Source: a virus
Virus record (IMG/VR): IMGVR_UViG_3300030102_003270
Coordinates: 21,686 to 85,685 of that record
Direction: 5' to 3' (one strand)
Length of the DNA: 64,000 bases
Below are positions 33,473-46,392 of this stretch, piece by piece. The position numbers and the translations under genes are program-made. The notes beneath the pieces are model-generated. The model was not told where the DNA came from, did not search any database, and saw nothing but the letters and a program-made list of their open reading frames with translations. Each line of letters starts with the position of its first letter. Positions within the stretch are counted from its first letter, which is position 1.

Positions 33473-33599
33473 TCATCAGATTATCCATGTATTCTTCGAT
33501 TGTTTGATTAGAAACTCTATCTCCACTAAACGCTGCAAAGAATAACAGACATACTGCTATCAGAAACAATGCCCATAATATCCATTCTATTGTTGTCAC
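33429..33599 (-). CDS. Small single-span membrane protein (56 aa)
   Basis: GTG 33599 overlaps the exonuclease stop (GGTGA), indicating coupling. Residues 5-24 ('EWILWALFLIAVCLLFFAAF') form one membrane span, and the C-terminus is acidic and Gln/Asn-rich. It fills a gap otherwise without a gene. Function unknown. Confidence 0.55.
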   Translation of the reverse strand: MTTIEWILWALFLIAVCLLFFAAFSGDRVSNQTIEEYMDNLMSEEQQDWGGNNRGS

Positions 33600-34192
33600 C
33601 AGTTCACCTCTATTTCTCTTGTTTTTTCTTCGTTCATATCGAAGCCTTTTACAACTCCGTTGTCAATACCATACTTCCACAGGTCATAGACTAATTCACA
33701 ATCCTTCAAACAGTATTCTGCTACTTCTGAGTAGCCCCCTGCTTTCCAGACTTTAGGCGCATCTTCACTATGCATTATTTTTCCATCTCCCAAAGTATGT
33801 GTGACTAAGTTATCTAGGGTATATCTTTCACCCATTACACTGCTCACCTCACGACTAGTATCAATGTAGGCTTTCTTGTTCATATACTTCTGAATGCAAA
33901 AGATATCCAAAGAATCCCTAAGCACAGGCAAGTCAAACCCTGCTATGTTATGTCCTAGAAGTAGTCCTCCTTTCTGTAAATGCTCGTCTAAATCAAACTT
34001 CAATTGGGATATAGGCTTGACTTCAACATTAGACTTCTTCAGTTCGTCCACTGCTTTGTCTATGTATATTGTTCCTTTGTCACCATCCCAAGTGCATACA
34101 GTAGACACTTGAAACATATGGGTATTACCCCAACCCCCTATATCATAGGAGTAGTTCTTAGTCTCCAAATCTATTGCTAATACCTCAGACAT
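33596..34192 (-). CDS. DnaQ-like 3'-5' exonuclease (DEDDy type)
   Basis: 198 aa from ATG 34192, with GAGTGATT upstream. The three exonuclease motifs are present: Exo I 'AIDLET', Exo II 'GHNIAGFDLPVL', Exo III 'YCLKDCELV' (Tyr-x3-Asp). This is separate from the exonuclease domain inside the virus PolB, so it may be an extra proofreader, or degrade DNA or RNA primers. It lies at the end of the replication operon. Confidence 0.8.
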   Translation of the reverse strand: MSEVLAIDLETKNYSYDIGGWGNTHMFQVSTVCTWDGDKGTIYIDKAVDELKKSNVEVKPISQLKFDLDEHLQKGGLLLGHNIAGFDLPVLRDSLDIFCIQKYMNKKAYIDTSREVSSVMGERYTLDNLVTHTLGDGKIMHSEDAPKVWKAGGYSEVAEYCLKDCELVYDLWKYGIDNGVVKGFDMNEEKTREIEVNW

Positions 34193-34197
34193 GTGAA

Positions 34198-34299
34198 TCA
34201 CTCTACGAATCCATCACCGCCGCCTCTAAACAAGAACGACCAAGGACTTACGCCCCACATACGCATGATTTGTCTATCTTCCTTTTTCCACCATTTCAT
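34198..34299 (-). CDS. 33-aa micro-ORF between two coupled genes
   Basis: ATG overlaps the preceding TGA (ATGA). Its own TGA lies inside the binding site of the exonuclease gene, so it fits the gap exactly. The peptide is basic and aromatic at the N-terminus ('MKWWKKEDRQ') with a Gly-rich end. Position is the main support. Confidence 0.5.
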   Translation of the reverse strand: MKWWKKEDRQIMRMWGVSPWSFLFRGGGDGFVE

Positions 34300-37959: not shown

Positions 37960-38826
37960 TCACCACATCTCAGATTGTGCAGCATCGCATATTGGCATGA
38001 AACTACAATGTTGGCAGGTCTTGAAATAATACTTAGTGGGAAATTCTTCTCCTACCCTGCATTTATTCTCATACGCCTTTATCAATAGAGTAATGCCTCT
38101 CATGACTGCATTGATGCTAGTTTGCTTTACGGGTTCAGTCTCAATGTAATTTGAAACAGGGTAATACCAACCCCAATGGGTTATCGGTATTTCTCTATCT
38201 ATACCTGCTTCTACTAACATTTCATCTGTGGCGTTGTCTACAAGCAATTTGTAGAACGATAATTCCTGTCTCATTGTTGTTCTCTTGTAGTCTTTCCACG
38301 GCCCTGTTTTCAATTCAATAGGTATGTATGCATTATCCTCTATGAACATCCTATCTATGATACCTTGGAGATGAACGGTATAGTCCCTCTCTAATACGCA
38401 CTTGGGATTCAAGTCCTGCGGGATGAACAATTCTGCATCTAACTTAACTTCATTTATCACAGGCAAGTAACTATGCAGTTTGTTTGCTTGCTTGGCTTCA
38501 ATGAACCTGTTTGCCTCAAAGACTGATATGTTCCTGTATATGTCGGTGTAGCCATCAATAGGATGCAACCCCATATTATATTCTATCAATTCATCATTTG
38601 ACATATTCTCAGCCTTCTTAACATCAAAGACTTCAAAGAAATCCTCTCTACTATTGTGAACCGCAGTGCCTTTTATCATGGCCTCGCTGGTATCTTGTGG
38701 TAGTCTGTCAATATACGAAAACTCGTATTTCTTAGGACACCACTTAAATGAACCATACGAAGATTTTGTTATCTTCAAAGTAGGTTCGTCGTCTTCTACA
38801 TTCCATTGGTATGTGTATTCTCTCAT
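37960..38826 (-). CDS. Cas4/RecB-like PD-(D/E)xK nuclease with Fe-S cysteines
   Basis: 288 aa from ATG 38826 (GGTGGT upstream). Motifs in order: 'SYGSFKWCPKKYEFSYID' with the first Cys, 'GTAVH', 'GIIDRM', 'IPIELKTG' (the E-x-K catalytic strand), 'QELSFYKLL' (QxxxY), and a C-terminal 'CQHCSFMPIC' triad. The layout of one Cys early and three late is the Fe-S cluster of Cas4/AddB exonucleases. There is no CRISPR array or cas1/cas2, so it probably processes DNA ends during viral replication or recombination. Confidence 0.82.
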   Translation of the reverse strand: MREYTYQWNVEDDEPTLKITKSSYGSFKWCPKKYEFSYIDRLPQDTSEAMIKGTAVHNSREDFFEVFDVKKAENMSNDELIEYNMGLHPIDGYTDIYRNISVFEANRFIEAKQANKLHSYLPVINEVKLDAELFIPQDLNPKCVLERDYTVHLQGIIDRMFIEDNAYIPIELKTGPWKDYKRTTMRQELSFYKLLVDNATDEMLVEAGIDREIPITHWGWYYPVSNYIETEPVKQTSINAVMRGITLLIKAYENKCRVGEEFPTKYYFKTCQHCSFMPICDAAQSEMW

Positions 38827-38828
38827 TA

Positions 38829-39746
38829 TTACCACCATTCATCTAACGTCTTTTGTTTTGAGTCATTTTTTATTGGGGCTAGACTCCAACCCATTGCCTT
38901 GTATATTGGTTCAGCCTTCTTTATAATAGATTCTGCATAATGGGGCCAATCTGGTGTATGTCTATACAATTCTTCCTTTGTAGAAGCAGCGATATAGGAC
39001 GGTCTTTTGACTACGCCTGTAACCGGATTAACGTAGGTTGTTCTCCTAACGTCATCTGCTACCTTTAGATAAACATAAGAATCATCTATCTTATTGTCTT
39101 CATTCTGATGATTCCAGATAACACCTTCAATGCCAGAACCTATACTTGGCCTTTTACCAGAAGTTGTGACCACATTCAATTTTTGACCGCACTTACTACA
39201 ACATGCCTCATGACTGTCTCGCTTTGCTTCATTGTGAATATCAATGCAATCTTGCATTGAAAGTGCTTTTTTGCAGTCATTACACTTGTAAGATAGCCTT
39301 TCTGGTCTATATCTGCTTCTGTTAATCAGATAGTCAACTGGGACTTTTCCTTCAAGGACTGCGTAATATGCCTTCTTCAACATGCTAGTTATTTCTAACT
39401 CGGTGAATTGACCAACCCACATTTTCAGAATGCTCATCTGAGTCTCCTTGGCTAGTTTGGTTATTGATAACCGCTTTGCAGTAAAACCCGTCATTACAAA
39501 TTCTGGCTCATTCAGATACTTTCCATCCTTCCAAGAAATCAAACCAGCGTTTCTATTCTTAGTTAGACCTACACCTAGAGACTGATAGTATTTCTCAAAC
39601 TCCAAAGTAACAGGATGTTCATCCAAACCTAACAAGTTAGGAAATATCTGCCTAACATGATTGTTTAGTAATTGTAACGTTGCTTCTGCTTCTTCCATAG
39701 GCATTTGAACGTATATTGAATCAGTGTGTCCATAAACAACCTTCAC
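38829..39746 (-). CDS. polB2: DNA polymerase B, C-terminal half (motif C, thumb, PIP box)
   Basis: 305 aa from GTG 39746 with GGTGATT five bases upstream. It begins almost at once with 'VVYGHTDSIYVQ', family B motif C (His where the first Asp of DTD usually is; the catalytic Asp is kept). 'FVMTGFTAKRLSITKLAKETQ' matches the palm-thumb junction. A zinc-ribbon insertion ('CNDC'...'CSKC') lies at about 155-190. The chain ends 'KQKTLDEWW', a PCNA-binding PIP box. It must pair with the N-terminal half encoded upstream to make an active enzyme. Confidence 0.88.
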   Translation of the reverse strand: MKVVYGHTDSIYVQMPMEEAEATLQLLNNHVRQIFPNLLGLDEHPVTLEFEKYYQSLGVGLTKNRNAGLISWKDGKYLNEPEFVMTGFTAKRLSITKLAKETQMSILKMWVGQFTELEITSMLKKAYYAVLEGKVPVDYLINRSRYRPERLSYKCNDCKKALSMQDCIDIHNEAKRDSHEACCSKCGQKLNVVTTSGKRPSIGSGIEGVIWNHQNEDNKIDDSYVYLKVADDVRRTTYVNPVTGVVKRPSYIAASTKEELYRHTPDWPHYAESIIKKAEPIYKAMGWSLAPIKNDSKQKTLDEWW

Positions 39747-39829
39747 TTACAATCACCACACCTATACCTTCTATCTAGACCAAAAGGGTGTATAGCACCA
39801 CACCATCTACATTGTCTTCTGTTCTTCAT
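39743..39829 (-). CDS. 28-aa zinc-ribbon micro-ORF between the PolB halves
   Basis: ATG 39829. 'CRWC' and 'CGDC' with an 18-20 residue spacing make a complete minimal zinc ribbon ('MKNRRQCRWCGAIHP' start). Its TGA overlaps the GTG of PolB-C (GTGA), and its end holds that gene's GGTGAT site. Confidence 0.58.
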   Translation of the reverse strand: MKNRRQCRWCGAIHPFGLDRRYRCGDCK

Positions 39830-39831
39830 AT

Positions 39832-39930
39832 CTAGCACACTCCTACGATAATAGAATTCAATACAAACGCAATCGTGCCGGATATATAGAAACTCATTCT
39901 TCCATAAAATATCTTATCTTCCCTATTCAT
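39832..39930 (-). CDS. 32-aa membrane micro-ORF between the PolB halves
   Basis: ATG 39930 has GGTGATTAGA directly upstream, one of the best ribosome sites in the region. The peptide has a hydrophobic segment ('SGTIAFVLNSIIVGVC') after a charged N-terminus. Function unknown. Confidence 0.55.
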   Translation of the reverse strand: MNREDKIFYGRMSFYISGTIAFVLNSIIVGVC

Positions 39931-39931
39931 T

Positions 39932-40018
39932 CTAATCACCAAACAGAAAGCGATACAGGATAACGCTCATAGCGGAAACATACAATACAATTATACTGAA
40001 ACTGACGACATTCATCAT
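39932..40018 (-). CDS. 28-aa hydrophobic micro-ORF between the PolB halves
   Basis: ATG 40018 overlaps the TGA of PolB-N (ATGA), with GGTGATGGAG upstream. Nearly the whole peptide is one hydrophobic helix ('VVSFSIIVLYVSAMSVILY'). It ends 'RFLFGD', and its 3' end forms the binding site of the next micro-ORF. Confidence 0.52.
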   Translation of the reverse strand: MMNVVSFSIIVLYVSAMSVILYRFLFGD

Positions 40019-41685
40019 AACTCCATCACCTTGAAAGCCGCTTCCCTAATTGCTTCTCTAGCACTAGCAGTTATACTAGCAGCCAAATCAACATCAGCCC
40101 AACCAAATCCTTGATACCCAACCACTCCATAGAATGAAGCCATCAGTCTCTTAACTGCTAATTGGTTGTTGTTCCACTTAGCATATTCAGCAGGGTCTTT
40201 TGCGTTATACATTCTCTTCTTGTATTCCGTCCTTAGTTTCTTTAGGTCTAATACTGCCTTTGGCAGAAGACCCAATTCATCCGTCCTGTAATATTTCCAG
40301 TCTTCAAACTTGACAGGACTGAAATCTCTTGGTATCAGGACGTTCACACCAAACTCAGTTGGTTCCTTTGATTTAGTCTCCCATGATATATTACGGGCAA
40401 TCATCATACTAGGATATAGCCCTGCAAAATCAAATGCAGCAACACCTAGATGCAAACCATTGGTTCCTTCTGTCTCCGGGTTGTAAATCATAGCACCCTC
40501 ATACTCCACCCTGTCACCTTCTTTGTCTCCTGTTGGAGCCTTCCAAGTAGCATTACGCATGAAGTATATTCCACCCATGTTTGATGCATAGAAACATGCA
40601 TCGAATGGTGCAACAATCAAACGCTGAAGTGATATGATTGCCTCAGAAGTATAGTTTTCTTCATCCAATCTAACAATCAAGTCAACGTCCTTTCTAGCAT
40701 AGTCTAGATAGTTTTGAGTATCTTCTAACCATCCTCTTTGAAAGAACTGATTCTTGTCTGGAAACCTATCACTGACTAGTTTCTTCTCACCAAGGACATT
40801 CTCAGAAACATAGTCCAATGCCAATGAGGGTAATGTTCCCCTTTGAGCATCATTCCATTGTCTCTCAAACGCCAAGTCTAGATTCAGAATCAACCTTCCT
40901 CTAATCGGTTGCTCGATAGGAGTATAGGAATTGACTGCCTTACTGAGTTTTATGCCACCAGAATAATACACTCCCTTGACATCATTGTAAGGAGATAGAA
41001 GTCTTGGGTCTATATCATTGGCATGTAATCTCTCAATTAACTTAGGCAAATCGAACTTTGAACCAAACCAAGCAATAAGCATGTCTGGGTCTTTTTCCGT
41101 AATCTCCTTGACGAATGCAAAAAGCATACTCTTCTCAGAATCATAGGGCTTTGAATGTCCTCTAATCTTTCTATTGATTGAATCTGGTTGCCACCAATAT
41201 ACATTAGATTTCTTAGTATAGTTGTCATAATAGGAAATACAAGTAATAGCACCGTTATACTTACCACGCTGTTGCCACTCTAAATCCCAGTAAAACTTCC
41301 TAAGTCTGTATTCTGGCAGTGATGTTAATCTGTCAATTGCATACCGATAATGAAAGGGAACGTCTGCCTCAAAGGTTTCATTCCATTGCTTACGCAGTTC
41401 CCTAACGTAGTTTGGTTTTGGTGGACTCCAAGTAACTTTCTTCAAAGCCCTACCATCAAGAGATACAGAACCATCAACAGTATAACTTAGATTGATTCTA
41501 AACGAATCCTTCCTACCATTGACGTATTCTGTAATGTTGACTCCTTGCCTTTCATTCTCATTTGCCAGAATGTAGAAATACGGATTGAAATCCGCATAAC
41601 TTACATTCGACTCTAATCTATTGTTGTTCTCATCTCTCCATCTAAGAACAAACATATTCGCATTGTCTATTGCACTAATTATCAT
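40015..41685 (-). CDS. polB1: DNA polymerase B, N-terminal half (exonuclease, motifs A and B)
   Basis: 556 aa, start at ATG 41685. Exo I 'WDLEW' (Asp134, Glu136), Exo II 'WFGSKFDLP' (Asp212), Exo III 'YARKD' (Tyr329, Asp333), motif A 'DFAGLYPSM' (Asp419) and motif B 'KRLMASFYG' (512-520) are all present. The frame then stops after 'ITASAREAIREAAFKVMEL', exactly the helix that precedes motif C in intact family B polymerases. Motif C is encoded 269 bases downstream in a second gene. Proofreading residues look intact. PCNA lies directly upstream. Confidence 0.93.
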   Translation of the reverse strand: MIISAIDNANMFVLRWRDENNNRLESNVSYADFNPYFYILANENERQGVNITEYVNGRKDSFRINLSYTVDGSVSLDGRALKKVTWSPPKPNYVRELRKQWNETFEADVPFHYRYAIDRLTSLPEYRLRKFYWDLEWQQRGKYNGAITCISYYDNYTKKSNVYWWQPDSINRKIRGHSKPYDSEKSMLFAFVKEITEKDPDMLIAWFGSKFDLPKLIERLHANDIDPRLLSPYNDVKGVYYSGGIKLSKAVNSYTPIEQPIRGRLILNLDLAFERQWNDAQRGTLPSLALDYVSENVLGEKKLVSDRFPDKNQFFQRGWLEDTQNYLDYARKDVDLIVRLDEENYTSEAIISLQRLIVAPFDACFYASNMGGIYFMRNATWKAPTGDKEGDRVEYEGAMIYNPETEGTNGLHLGVAAFDFAGLYPSMMIARNISWETKSKEPTEFGVNVLIPRDFSPVKFEDWKYYRTDELGLLPKAVLDLKKLRTEYKKRMYNAKDPAEYAKWNNNQLAVKRLMASFYGVVGYQGFGWADVDLAASITASAREAIREAAFKVMEL

Positions 41686-41689
41686 TGAA

Positions 41690-42469
41690 TCATCCTCTAA
41701 TATAGGGTGCTACTATTAATTTTCTATCTACACCACACAATAGTATGGGTGCATCGTCTTTCATATACAGATACATAGTACCGGAACAGAACTTGTCTAG
41801 TGGTGCAGATACCTCAAGTGTGGAGTTTTCTCCTTCTCCTAGAATGATTGGTATGTTCACTTTATACTTCTCAGTCTGATGGAAGTTCACAGAAGAGGCA
41901 GTCAACTCACCATCCTCAAAGTTAATCCTGTAAGTAGCAGTTCCTACAATACCACAGTTCTTGATAGCATTGGCTAAAGCATCTCCTTGCACTGTTACTT
42001 TTGTCTCAAAGGTAGTCCTACCAAACGTAGGAAACTCATCTCCTTCTACATCCACTCTCATGCCAAATATTCTACTAATAGCAGCCATACCAGAATGCTC
42101 TACAAGCAATGGTATCTGCGCTCTTTGTGACGAAGTTTTCAAGATAACGTTTGACGCTGTAATAGTAATATACATATCATCGTCCTTGAAGGTCTTCAGA
42201 TACTTCAATATCCTCTCAACCTCAAAAATGAACATAGACTGCTCACTCTTTGTCACTATGTCAGTAATACCAACATTGCACATTGCTGCCATAGTATCGC
42301 TGGCATTAGCCAAGGTCAATGTTGTGCCATCATTGCTTATCACTCCGGCTACATCATTGCTTATGGCTGCTAACTTTGAAGTATGAGCATTCTTATACTT
42401 GCCCTTCAAAGTAACTGCATTCAACGCAGAATCAAACTCTTTTCTATTCACTGTAAATTTAACATTCAT
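41690..42469 (-). CDS. pcn: Sliding clamp (PCNA)
   Basis: 259 aa with the two-domain PCNA layout: a 'MNVKFTVNRKEFDSALNAV' start, an interdomain segment near 115-135, and the C-terminal 'KLIVAPYIRG' strand equivalent to the usual 'LAP.I'. Length is typical (245-260). It sits five bases upstream of the PolB N-terminal gene and just after a RecA-like ATPase gene. PIP-box motifs in PolB-C, the RFC-large-like protein and a micro-ORF suggest what it binds. Confidence 0.87.
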   Translation of the reverse strand: MNVKFTVNRKEFDSALNAVTLKGKYKNAHTSKLAAISNDVAGVISNDGTTLTLANASDTMAAMCNVGITDIVTKSEQSMFIFEVERILKYLKTFKDDDMYITITASNVILKTSSQRAQIPLLVEHSGMAAISRIFGMRVDVEGDEFPTFGRTTFETKVTVQGDALANAIKNCGIVGTATYRINFEDGELTASSVNFHQTEKYKVNIPIILGEGENSTLEVSAPLDKFCSGTMYLYMKDDAPILLCGVDRKLIVAPYIRG

Positions 42470-45486: not shown

Positions 45487-46392
45487 TCAAATCAACTGCC
45501 CTATCATCCATGCTGCTAATACTTTAGGAGTCATACTACCACTTCTCCATTCACTTTCTCCTATTACTCTAAGATATTTGAATTTCTTAGCAGTTGGTAG
45601 ATTCTTTTTAACGATAACATCATGCATACCTACACAAATAGTTTTCATGTCTAACGACATATGTATCATATCATGCATTTTCTTGAGGGCTAATTCATAT
45701 TGGTCATTAAGAATGTGTTCTAACAAATCATTGTAAGGTTGTTGCATTCTTTCTATTTGCATTGTTAACGGGGTATCACTTGAAACAGACGCCTGTAATT
45801 CAGTAATCCCTCGTCTTAAGTCACCATTTAGTGTCCCTATAAACTCTTCCAACTGAGGAAAATCTGCGCTGGATATGCCTTCAGCCGACAGTATTCTATT
45901 CAACGCAACCGCTATCTGTTGGTCGGATAGTCTGGTAAATCCATAGTTTGCACATCTTGACTGCAATGGATAAATTATCTTGTGCCTATGGTTGCATGTA
46001 ATGATGAAACGAACATTGGAACTATAACGCTCCATTAGTCTCTTCAATGCATTCTGAGCATCGGGAGTCATACCGTCCATCTCATCAAGCAATATTATCT
46101 TATGAGGCACATCGCCTATCTTCATAGCAGATGAAATCTCTTTGATTGTGGTTCTAACCACTTCAAGCCTCCTATCATCCGAGGCATTTATTTCAAAGAA
46201 GTTCGACTCCTTATCCTCACCTAGCACAAAGTTTGCTATTACACCTGCTGCCGCAGTTTTACCTATACCTGCTTCTCCAAAGAGAAGGAGATTAGGCATT
46301 CCATCTTTCCAATTTCTAGCATCACTAACGAATTTATCTTGTCCTAAGATTTCCTCTAGTGTTTCCGGTCTATATTTTTCTGTCCATAACAT
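45487..46392 (-). CDS. rfcS: Clamp loader small subunit (RFC-S)
   Basis: 301 aa. 'WTEKYRPETLEEILGQ' (RFC box II), Walker A 'GEAGIGKT' (39-46), Walker B 'LLDEMDGM', and the 'SRC' box are all present. This AAA+ ATPase loads PCNA onto primed DNA. It partners the RFC-large-like gene six bases upstream. Length is slightly shorter than cellular RFC-S (about 320-330). Confidence 0.93.
   Translation of the reverse strand: MLWTEKYRPETLEEILGQDKFVSDARNWKDGMPNLLLFGEAGIGKTAAAGVIANFVLGEDKESNFFEINASDDRRLEVVRTTIKEISSAMKIGDVPHKIILLDEMDGMTPDAQNALKRLMERYSSNVRFIITCNHRHKIIYPLQSRCANYGFTRLSDQQIAVALNRILSAEGISSADFPQLEEFIGTLNGDLRRGITELQASVSSDTPLTMQIERMQQPYNDLLEHILNDQYELALKKMHDMIHMSLDMKTICVGMHDVIVKKNLPTAKKFKYLRVIGESEWRSGSMTPKVLAAWMIGQLI

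Follow-up and report, generated by a model that had tools for sequence, protein, structure and literature searches.

A viral family B DNA polymerase divided between motifs B and C, probably assembled from two separate chains

Introduction

The halves of the split family B DNA polymerase (PolB) of the Methanobacteriales are not known to share an operon, and their motif C is canonical. Both polypeptides, of which the small one carries motif C, were reportedly found by Kelman et al. in 1999 to be required for activity. Split PolBs are known from the Methanobacteriales and Nanoarchaeum equitans (PMC4104785), from Aeromonas phages (PMC2988022) and from phage MIJ3 (PMC6892783), and the gp43A and gp43B halves of Aeromonas phage 25 co-purify and display polymerase activity (PMC2988022). 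Here we analyse a PolB pair found in a window of 64,000 nucleotides (nt), positions 21,686-85,685 of the IMG/VR virus record IMGVR_UViG_3300030102_003270. We consider it highly probable that the pair encodes a single PolB, belonging to the T4/halovirus lineage, in two polypeptides that are never covalently joined but assemble into one polymerase, where assembly and activity are the parts that we infer.

The figure of the 2023 International Committee on Taxonomy of Viruses profile of the Aoguangviridae labels PolB-NTD and PolB-CTD as separate genes in the Poseidoniales virus YSH_150918 (ON649702), a magrovirus (order Magrovirales; PMC10768690). Hence, the split itself has been annotated previously. 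Compared by description only, as given in the accessible parts of the profile, that virus resembles the one studied here in its two opposite gene blocks and its PCNA, RFC-S and TFB genes, and judging from these parts its PolB-NTD and PolB-CTD very likely represent the same split. The profile text, as far as it was available, does not say where the seam lies and is silent on residues, conservation and mechanism. A term search did not find split PolB mentioned in Nishimura 2017, Lopez-Perez 2017, Liu 2021 or Xu 2023. In the literature covered, from which some key papers were absent, we found no prior description of the fixed active-site exchanges or of the insertion hot spot at the seam, the stretch between the two halves.

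Materials and methods

The whole genome from which the window derives (G000) measures 96,269 base pairs (bp). Relatives, whose loci carry L numbers below, were collected by IMG/VR scans with both PolB halves and with alignments of the halves, plus one genome contig, and contributed to a total of 159 distinct C-terminal (C) halves. Each scan comprised the best 80 matches, and all counts of relatives rest on the matches listed. C halves were called distinct if they differed within the first 300 nt of PolB-C, and many close kin remain among them. Residue conservation was evaluated across 126 split sequences aligned with 71 one-piece ones. The comparison with the RB69 gp43 structure was made by VIA-align, ratios of nonsynonymous to synonymous substitution rates (dN/dS) are medians, and agreement between the trees of the halves was assessed by Mantel test. 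For AlphaFold, a close relative with an in-frame seam (L003) was read through with its stops as Gly, giving the N-terminal (N) half, a 61-residue nonsense linker and the C half as one chain. One contig of the same virus type (L320) lies inside a genome bin labelled Maricaulis sp. and is probably a binning contaminant.

Results

A sequence-only reading of the window had placed the exonuclease motifs and motifs A and B in the first gene and had the second gene open at motif C and carry the thumb and a PIP box. Both statements agree with our alignments: all of the former motifs are located within the PolB-N open reading frame (ORF), which ends in SAREAIREAAFKVMEL followed by the stop codon, whereas PolB-C opens with GTG-KVVYGHTDS and terminates in QKTLDEWW (Table 1). 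The Gln of this PIP-like box is found in 125 of the 126 split sequences and its first Trp in every one. The two proteins match complementary stretches of Pfam PF00136 (profile positions 36-195 for the N half, 222-377 for the C half) and likewise of the one-piece PolB profile phrog_262, of which positions 19 to 559 are matched by the N half and 574 to 715 by the C half. The claim that nothing is missing at the junction holds insofar as the halves fit adjoining profile stretches, but the split pair is about two residues shorter there than one-piece haloviral PolBs (IKRTAKYVDEESIANVAYGD versus IREAAFKVMEL / MKVVYGH). The break therefore sits in the short connection from the palm helix to the motif C strand. 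Across loci, the N half ends mostly in AAFKV(M/R)EL and the C half starts mostly with M-K-V-V-Y.

The division is shared by the whole group. Related viruses, to which the sequence-only reading had pointed as the place to look for fused or split genes, gave a uniform answer: the halves are separate in 151/151 distinct contigs with both in view and fused in none. The N half precedes the C half in 150 of these, and in the remaining one (L305:2588-5619) the order is clamp, PolB-C, PD-(D/E)XK nuclease, PolB-N, which makes the halves independent units. Both halves are under strong purifying selection (dN/dS 0.075 for the N half and 0.060 for the C half), and their trees agree (Mantel r 0.71, p 0.001). 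Single-contig viral genomes can carry frameshifts, and the N half of L174 looks frameshifted, so that an artefact of sequencing or assembly, or a recent break in the gene, deserves mention. However, an assembly error is excluded because all 151 distinct contigs agree, and the strong constraint on both halves leaves such an origin with practically no probability; we regard artefact and fresh break alike as ruled out by the relatives. As a separate observation, the 91.7-kilobase (kb) genome L174 / L455 has a PolB-N broken in several frames and an intact PolB-C, owing to either sequencing error or real decay.

No PolB beyond the two halves was found in the 96,269-bp genome or in 20 relatives of 79-98 kb, and none of these 20 genomes combines the split pair with an intact PolB, an arrangement that the sequence-only reading had named as contrary to its proposal. 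A 201-amino-acid (aa) ORF at 33596-34201 of the window weakly resembles the exonuclease region of PolB (phrog_262 273-324) and may encode an additional 3'-5' exonuclease-like protein.

With 22 alignment rows, AlphaFold produced a poor model of the linked L003 chain (predicted template modelling score, pTM, 0.39). With 51 rows, including one-piece relatives, the mean predicted local distance difference test score reached 86.9 and the pTM 0.79, and only the linker scored below 50. This model matches RB69 gp43 with a Z of 32.5 and a root-mean-square deviation of 3.5 over 716 aligned positions (model 1-908 on chain 6-893), and it also matches thermococcal PolBs. The halves can thus form one PolB fold as predicted, binding as separate chains lying beyond what a linked model shows.

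The 268-bp seam of the window is itself coding. Three overlapping micro-ORFs, on which the sequence-only reading was silent, are chained to the PolB-N stop at one end and to the PolB-C start at the other. That reading had also ascribed to the C half its own GTG and GGTGATT site, and indeed the Shine-Dalgarno-like GGTGAT precedes the GTG by 5 nt; at 61 of 139 loci the PolB-C start is preceded by a Shine-Dalgarno match of 5 nt or more, compared with 6% of random places. Across relatives the seam is an insertion hot spot. Its length varies from -4 to 2392 bp (median 413), and 133 seams carry 360 ORFs, with 93% of the sequence coding and up to ten ORFs in one seam. About a quarter of these ORFs have paired CxxC/H motifs and about a quarter are membrane-like. 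HNH-type genes are present inside the seams of L299 and L198 and, by eye, also in those of L454, L463 and L465. Four loci have no insert between the halves, which meet in overlapping ATGA or TAATG junctions. In contrast to the seam, the junction between the clamp gene and PolB-N is mostly shorter than 25 bp.

These properties bear on whether the halves are joined after all, by trans-splicing inteins, RNA splicing, ribosomal frameshifting or bypassing over the seam. Split inteins do join the PolBs of N. equitans and phage MIJ3 (PMC4104785, PMC6892783), and some relatives have inteins in their PolB. However, the absence of intein residues noted in the sequence-only reading extends to the listed loci, in which intein blocks after PolB-N and His-Asn ahead of PolB-C were not found and the ends of the halves are nearly identical throughout. 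An Rfam search of the seam found no intron, and the four tight junctions leave no room for one. The length of the seams (up to 2392 bp) and their dense coding, the ribosome-binding sites of the C halves and the reversed gene order in L305 likewise argue against a continuous product, which we regard as most improbable. Intein splicing, RNA splicing and frameshifting were consequently rejected.

The active site of the pair is altered, which the sequence-only reading had not noted. The exonuclease residues D134, E136, D212, Y329 and D333 are invariant in 126/126 split and 71/71 one-piece sequences. The same full conservation in both groups holds for the motif A Asp, for Lys, Ser, Tyr and Gly of motif B, for the palm Glu and for the second motif C Asp. 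The first Asp of motif C, which corresponds to D621 of the RB69 triad D411, D621 and D623 (PMC3792054), is replaced by His (DTDS to HTDS) in all 126 split sequences, whereas all 71 one-piece sequences retain Asp; HTDS is found in each of the 159 distinct C halves. The second Lys and the Tyr of KKRY are each replaced by Asn (KNRN) in 126/126 split sequences and are canonical in 71/71 one-piece ones. The Asn of the motif B NSxYG is Ala in 124 of the 126 and Asn in all 71, and the Ser of the motif A SLYP, invariant in the one-piece set, is Gly in 94, Gln in 19 and still Ser in 12 split sequences. No one-piece relative with HTDS was seen among the best 80 matches per scan, including scans with patterns that omitted motif C.

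As the exchanges are uniform rather than scattered, the site appears to have changed rather than decayed. Because the canonical DTD, NSxYG and KKRY are absent, we have lowered the claim that this is a standard PolB. Membership in family B and in its T4/halovirus-like lineage still holds by homology and predicted fold; the canonical forms are usual but not family-defining, PolB2 also being without the first Asp of motif C. One could propose that the polymerase half has degenerated and that the pair serves mainly as an exonuclease for proofreading or repair, or else as a slow polymerase that tolerates damage, while the genome is copied by the host replicase. All split members carry the exchanges in motif C and KKRY and nearly all carry that in motif B, and there is a precedent in crenarchaeal Dpo2, which is also without the first Asp of motif C, was long predicted to be inactive, shows low primer extension and has a role in damage tolerance (PMC7390963). 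However, in the split clade the exonuclease and the remaining catalytic residues are fully kept, the C half evolves at a dN/dS of 0.06 although it holds only palm and thumb, and the PIP-like box, the clamp and the clamp loader are retained. Scattered decay would look different from these uniform replacements, and Dpo2 has also lost the exonuclease that the split-clade enzymes retain. Hence, degeneration seems unlikely to us. We tentatively suggest, as one possibility, that the split-clade polymerase is catalytically distinct. Its coordinated set of exchanges, at the motif A Ser, the motif B Asn, the first Asp of motif C (to His) and KKRY (to KNRN), may have become fixed beside the break. The resulting two-chain replicase would then use metal or choose nucleotides differently or copy with another fidelity, and its control might lie in the joining of the chains or in the micro-proteins of the seam.

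In the tree, 39 split sequences form one clade (Shimodaira-Hasegawa-like approximate likelihood ratio test 100) with one change of state, on a branch of 2.65 changes per column. The clade adjoins the one-piece haloviral PolBs, among viral PolBs, but its exact neighbour is uncertain because long branches meet there. As it sits on one long branch, the split and the residue exchanges cannot be ordered in time. In the likely history, a mobile endonuclease gene or an intein was inserted long ago and later lost. A single split would have preceded the radiation of the group, most likely through such an element entering a conserved coding stretch; the element would then have decayed, leaving the seam as a permissive place for small genes.

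A narrower variant, which concerns the origin only and is compatible with two separate chains, holds that a decaying intein, as opposed to a free-standing homing endonuclease gene, gave rise to the split. An intein origin is what Makarova et al. 2014 propose for the Methanobacteriales (PMC4104785), and haloviral PolBs in our tree have inteins at motif A (L332), motif B (L331) and motif C (L346, L350 and L351). Those at motif C, however, lie inside YGDTDS, several codons past the seam (YGD^TDS in L350 and L351, DTD^S in L346, with ^ marking the intein position). Furthermore, several seams contain HNH-type genes but none an intein remnant, and free-standing HNH genes split haloviral PolB at another site. 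Decay of an intein is thus conceivable, but we would not presume it. In two haloarchaeal virus loci (L348:3980-7413 and L349:3533-6884), PolB is interrupted at this second site, within the thumb, by a free-standing HNH-type gene whose product has 247 or 283 aa. In L332:1614-7104 the exonuclease and polymerase parts are split, with LAGLIDADG-like and RNase H-like ORFs between them, in addition to the intein near motif A.

The pair lies near genes for a probable sliding clamp, a nuclease and a clamp loader subunit (Table 1). The clamp-PolB-N and PolB-C-nuclease neighbourhoods are kept in relatives, with exceptions in distance or in order (L305, L080). The virus is marine and probably one of archaea, and its group probably infects Poseidoniales, an assignment made by gene content alone. 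Poseidoniales are abundant uncultured archaea of the ocean.

Several seams of relatives contain genes of other kinds. A 616-aa ORF directly upstream of PolB-C in L263 (114-1964) ends in an EFHGDYWHGNP-type stretch that by eye resembles Vsr-like homing endonucleases; Pfam and PDB searches with this protein gave no usable match, and only phrog_22677, of unassigned function, was hit. A circovirus-type Rep domain gene (PF02407, 4e-17) lies in the seam of an archaeal-type virus (L044:5410-5754), a PemK/MazF-like toxin gene (PF02452, 4e-16) in the seams of L152 (5380-5721) and L158, and MazG-type nucleotide pyrophosphohydrolase genes in those of L277, L276 and L279.

Table 1. Coordinates of the PolB pair, its motifs, the seam and neighbouring genes in the window
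Feature	Position	Strand	Support
PolB N half, 556 aa, comprising the N-terminal domain, the 3'-5' exonuclease, motif A of the palm and the fingers, which contain motif B	40015..41685	(-)	PF00136, PF03104, phrog_262 19-559
PolB C half, 305 aa, comprising the remaining palm (motif C onwards), the thumb and its Cys4 insertion, and a PIP-like C-terminal box	38829..39746	(-)	PF00136 222-377, phrog_262 574-715, alignment
Exo I, DxE, residues 134-136, invariant	41278..41286	(-)	alignment
Exo II, GSKFDL, residues 208-213, Asp212 invariant	41047..41064	(-)	alignment
Exo III, YxxxD, residues 329-333, Tyr and Asp invariant	40687..40701	(-)	alignment
Motif A, DFAGLYPS, catalytic Asp419; Gly instead of the SLYP Ser	40408..40431	(-)	alignment
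Motif B, KRLMASFYG; Ala516 instead of the NSxYG Asn	40126..40152	(-)	alignment
Motif C, YGHTDS; His at the first Asp position of DTD, second Asp retained	39717..39734	(-)	alignment
KNRN at the KKRY motif position	39549..39560	(-)	alignment
Cys4 zinc-ribbon-like thumb insertion of the C half (CNDC ... CSKC)	39189..39284	(-)	alignment; L115 and L263 without insertion
PIP-like box QKTLDEWW, C-terminal end of the C half	38832..38855	(-)	alignment
Seam micro-ORF 1, 28 aa, hydrophobic; ATG overlaps PolB-N stop (ATGA)	39932..40018	(-)	ORF reading
Seam micro-ORF 2, hydrophobic, 32 aa with the ATG start (36 aa with TTG 39942); homologues in 13 other seams	39832..39930	(-)	ORF reading, seam comparison
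Seam micro-ORF 3, CxxC...CxxC, 28 aa with the ATG start (31 aa with GTG 39838); stop overlaps PolB-C GTG (GTGA); homologues in 12 other seams	39743..39829	(-)	ORF reading, seam comparison
GGTGAT, Shine-Dalgarno-like, 5 nt ahead of PolB-C start	39752..39757	(-)	sequence
Probable sliding clamp, PCNA-like	41690..42469	(-)	phrog_947 E 1e-3 (weak); synteny: homologue directly upstream of PolB-N in relatives
PD-(D/E)XK nuclease, next gene downstream of PolB-C; synteny retained in relatives	37960..38838	(-)	PF12705 3e-14
Clamp loader small subunit, RFC-S-like	45487..46392	(-)	phrog_168 3e-54

Discussion

Assembly of two chains is the best-supported reading of this locus, on the basis of the universal and ancient split, purifying selection, the lack of another PolB, the ribosome-binding site of the C half, the complementarity of the fold and the gene order in L305. 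The operon would begin with the clamp gene, followed by PolB-N, the seam genes, PolB-C and the nuclease gene, and each half would be started separately, by the ribosome-binding site of the C half and by the overlapping start and stop signals along the seam. The two chains would then fold together without a covalent link, the terminal helix of PolB-N meeting the first beta strand of PolB-C, so that motif A of one chain and motif C of the other form a single active site. The C chain would contribute the thumb and the clamp-binding tail.

Several points weigh against this reading. Four to five normally invariant active-site residues are changed, and full polymerase activity is therefore not assured. 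Docking was predicted only within one linked chain from a shared alignment, and if the two halves descend from a single protein, such an alignment favours docking. The exact break is not explained by an intact mobile element in any seam, and the motif C inteins of haloviruses sit a few codons further on and off the seam. Finally, the support is computational, the polymerase assembly being predicted here from genes and a linked model.

The split pair seems to be the sole DNA polymerase of these viruses. A replicase that has no peptide bond beside motif C and carries HTDS for DTDS is a direct test of which active-site residues are essential in family B, and it offers a naturally two-part polymerase. 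The seam, in turn, shows a break within a gene that has stayed open through long evolution and on which small genes land.

Comparison with the split PolBs of Methanothermobacter and Nanoarchaeum, drawn in the sequence-only reading, is fair, with gp43A/gp43B of Aeromonas phage 25 a closer functional precedent. Like the pair in the window, the proteins of Aeromonas phages 25 and 44RR are a T4-like viral PolB encoded by two adjacent genes with an insert between them (an endonuclease gene or an untranslated spacer). The two profiles phrog_2062, ending at N-half residue 502, and phrog_1918, starting at 480, suggest that Aeromonas-type breaks precede motif B, whereas the break described here lies between motifs B and C and is fixed in a whole clade. 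A tblastn search of a phage collection with the C half gave no match. The PolB of the Methanobacteriales is similarly encoded by two genes with no intein (PMC4104785) but, by description, is set apart as a cellular enzyme of the PolB3 lineage that is thought to be intein-derived. Those of N. equitans and jumbo phage MIJ3 are also two-part but are trans-spliced by inteins, which the pair in the window is without.

Two one-piece enzymes complete the comparison. Crenarchaeal PolB2/Dpo2 shares the substitution of the first Asp of motif C, but it is without an exonuclease and functions in DNA-damage tolerance (PMC7390963). The PolBs of haloarchaeal tailed viruses (HF2, HRTV-25 and HRTV-27; Hafunaviridae) are the nearest named homologues of the N half, with about 26% identity and the same fold family, and Cys-rich micro-genes adjoin them as well. 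Unlike the pair in the window, they are made in one piece and carry canonical YGDTDS, KKRY/KKFY and NSxYG motifs.

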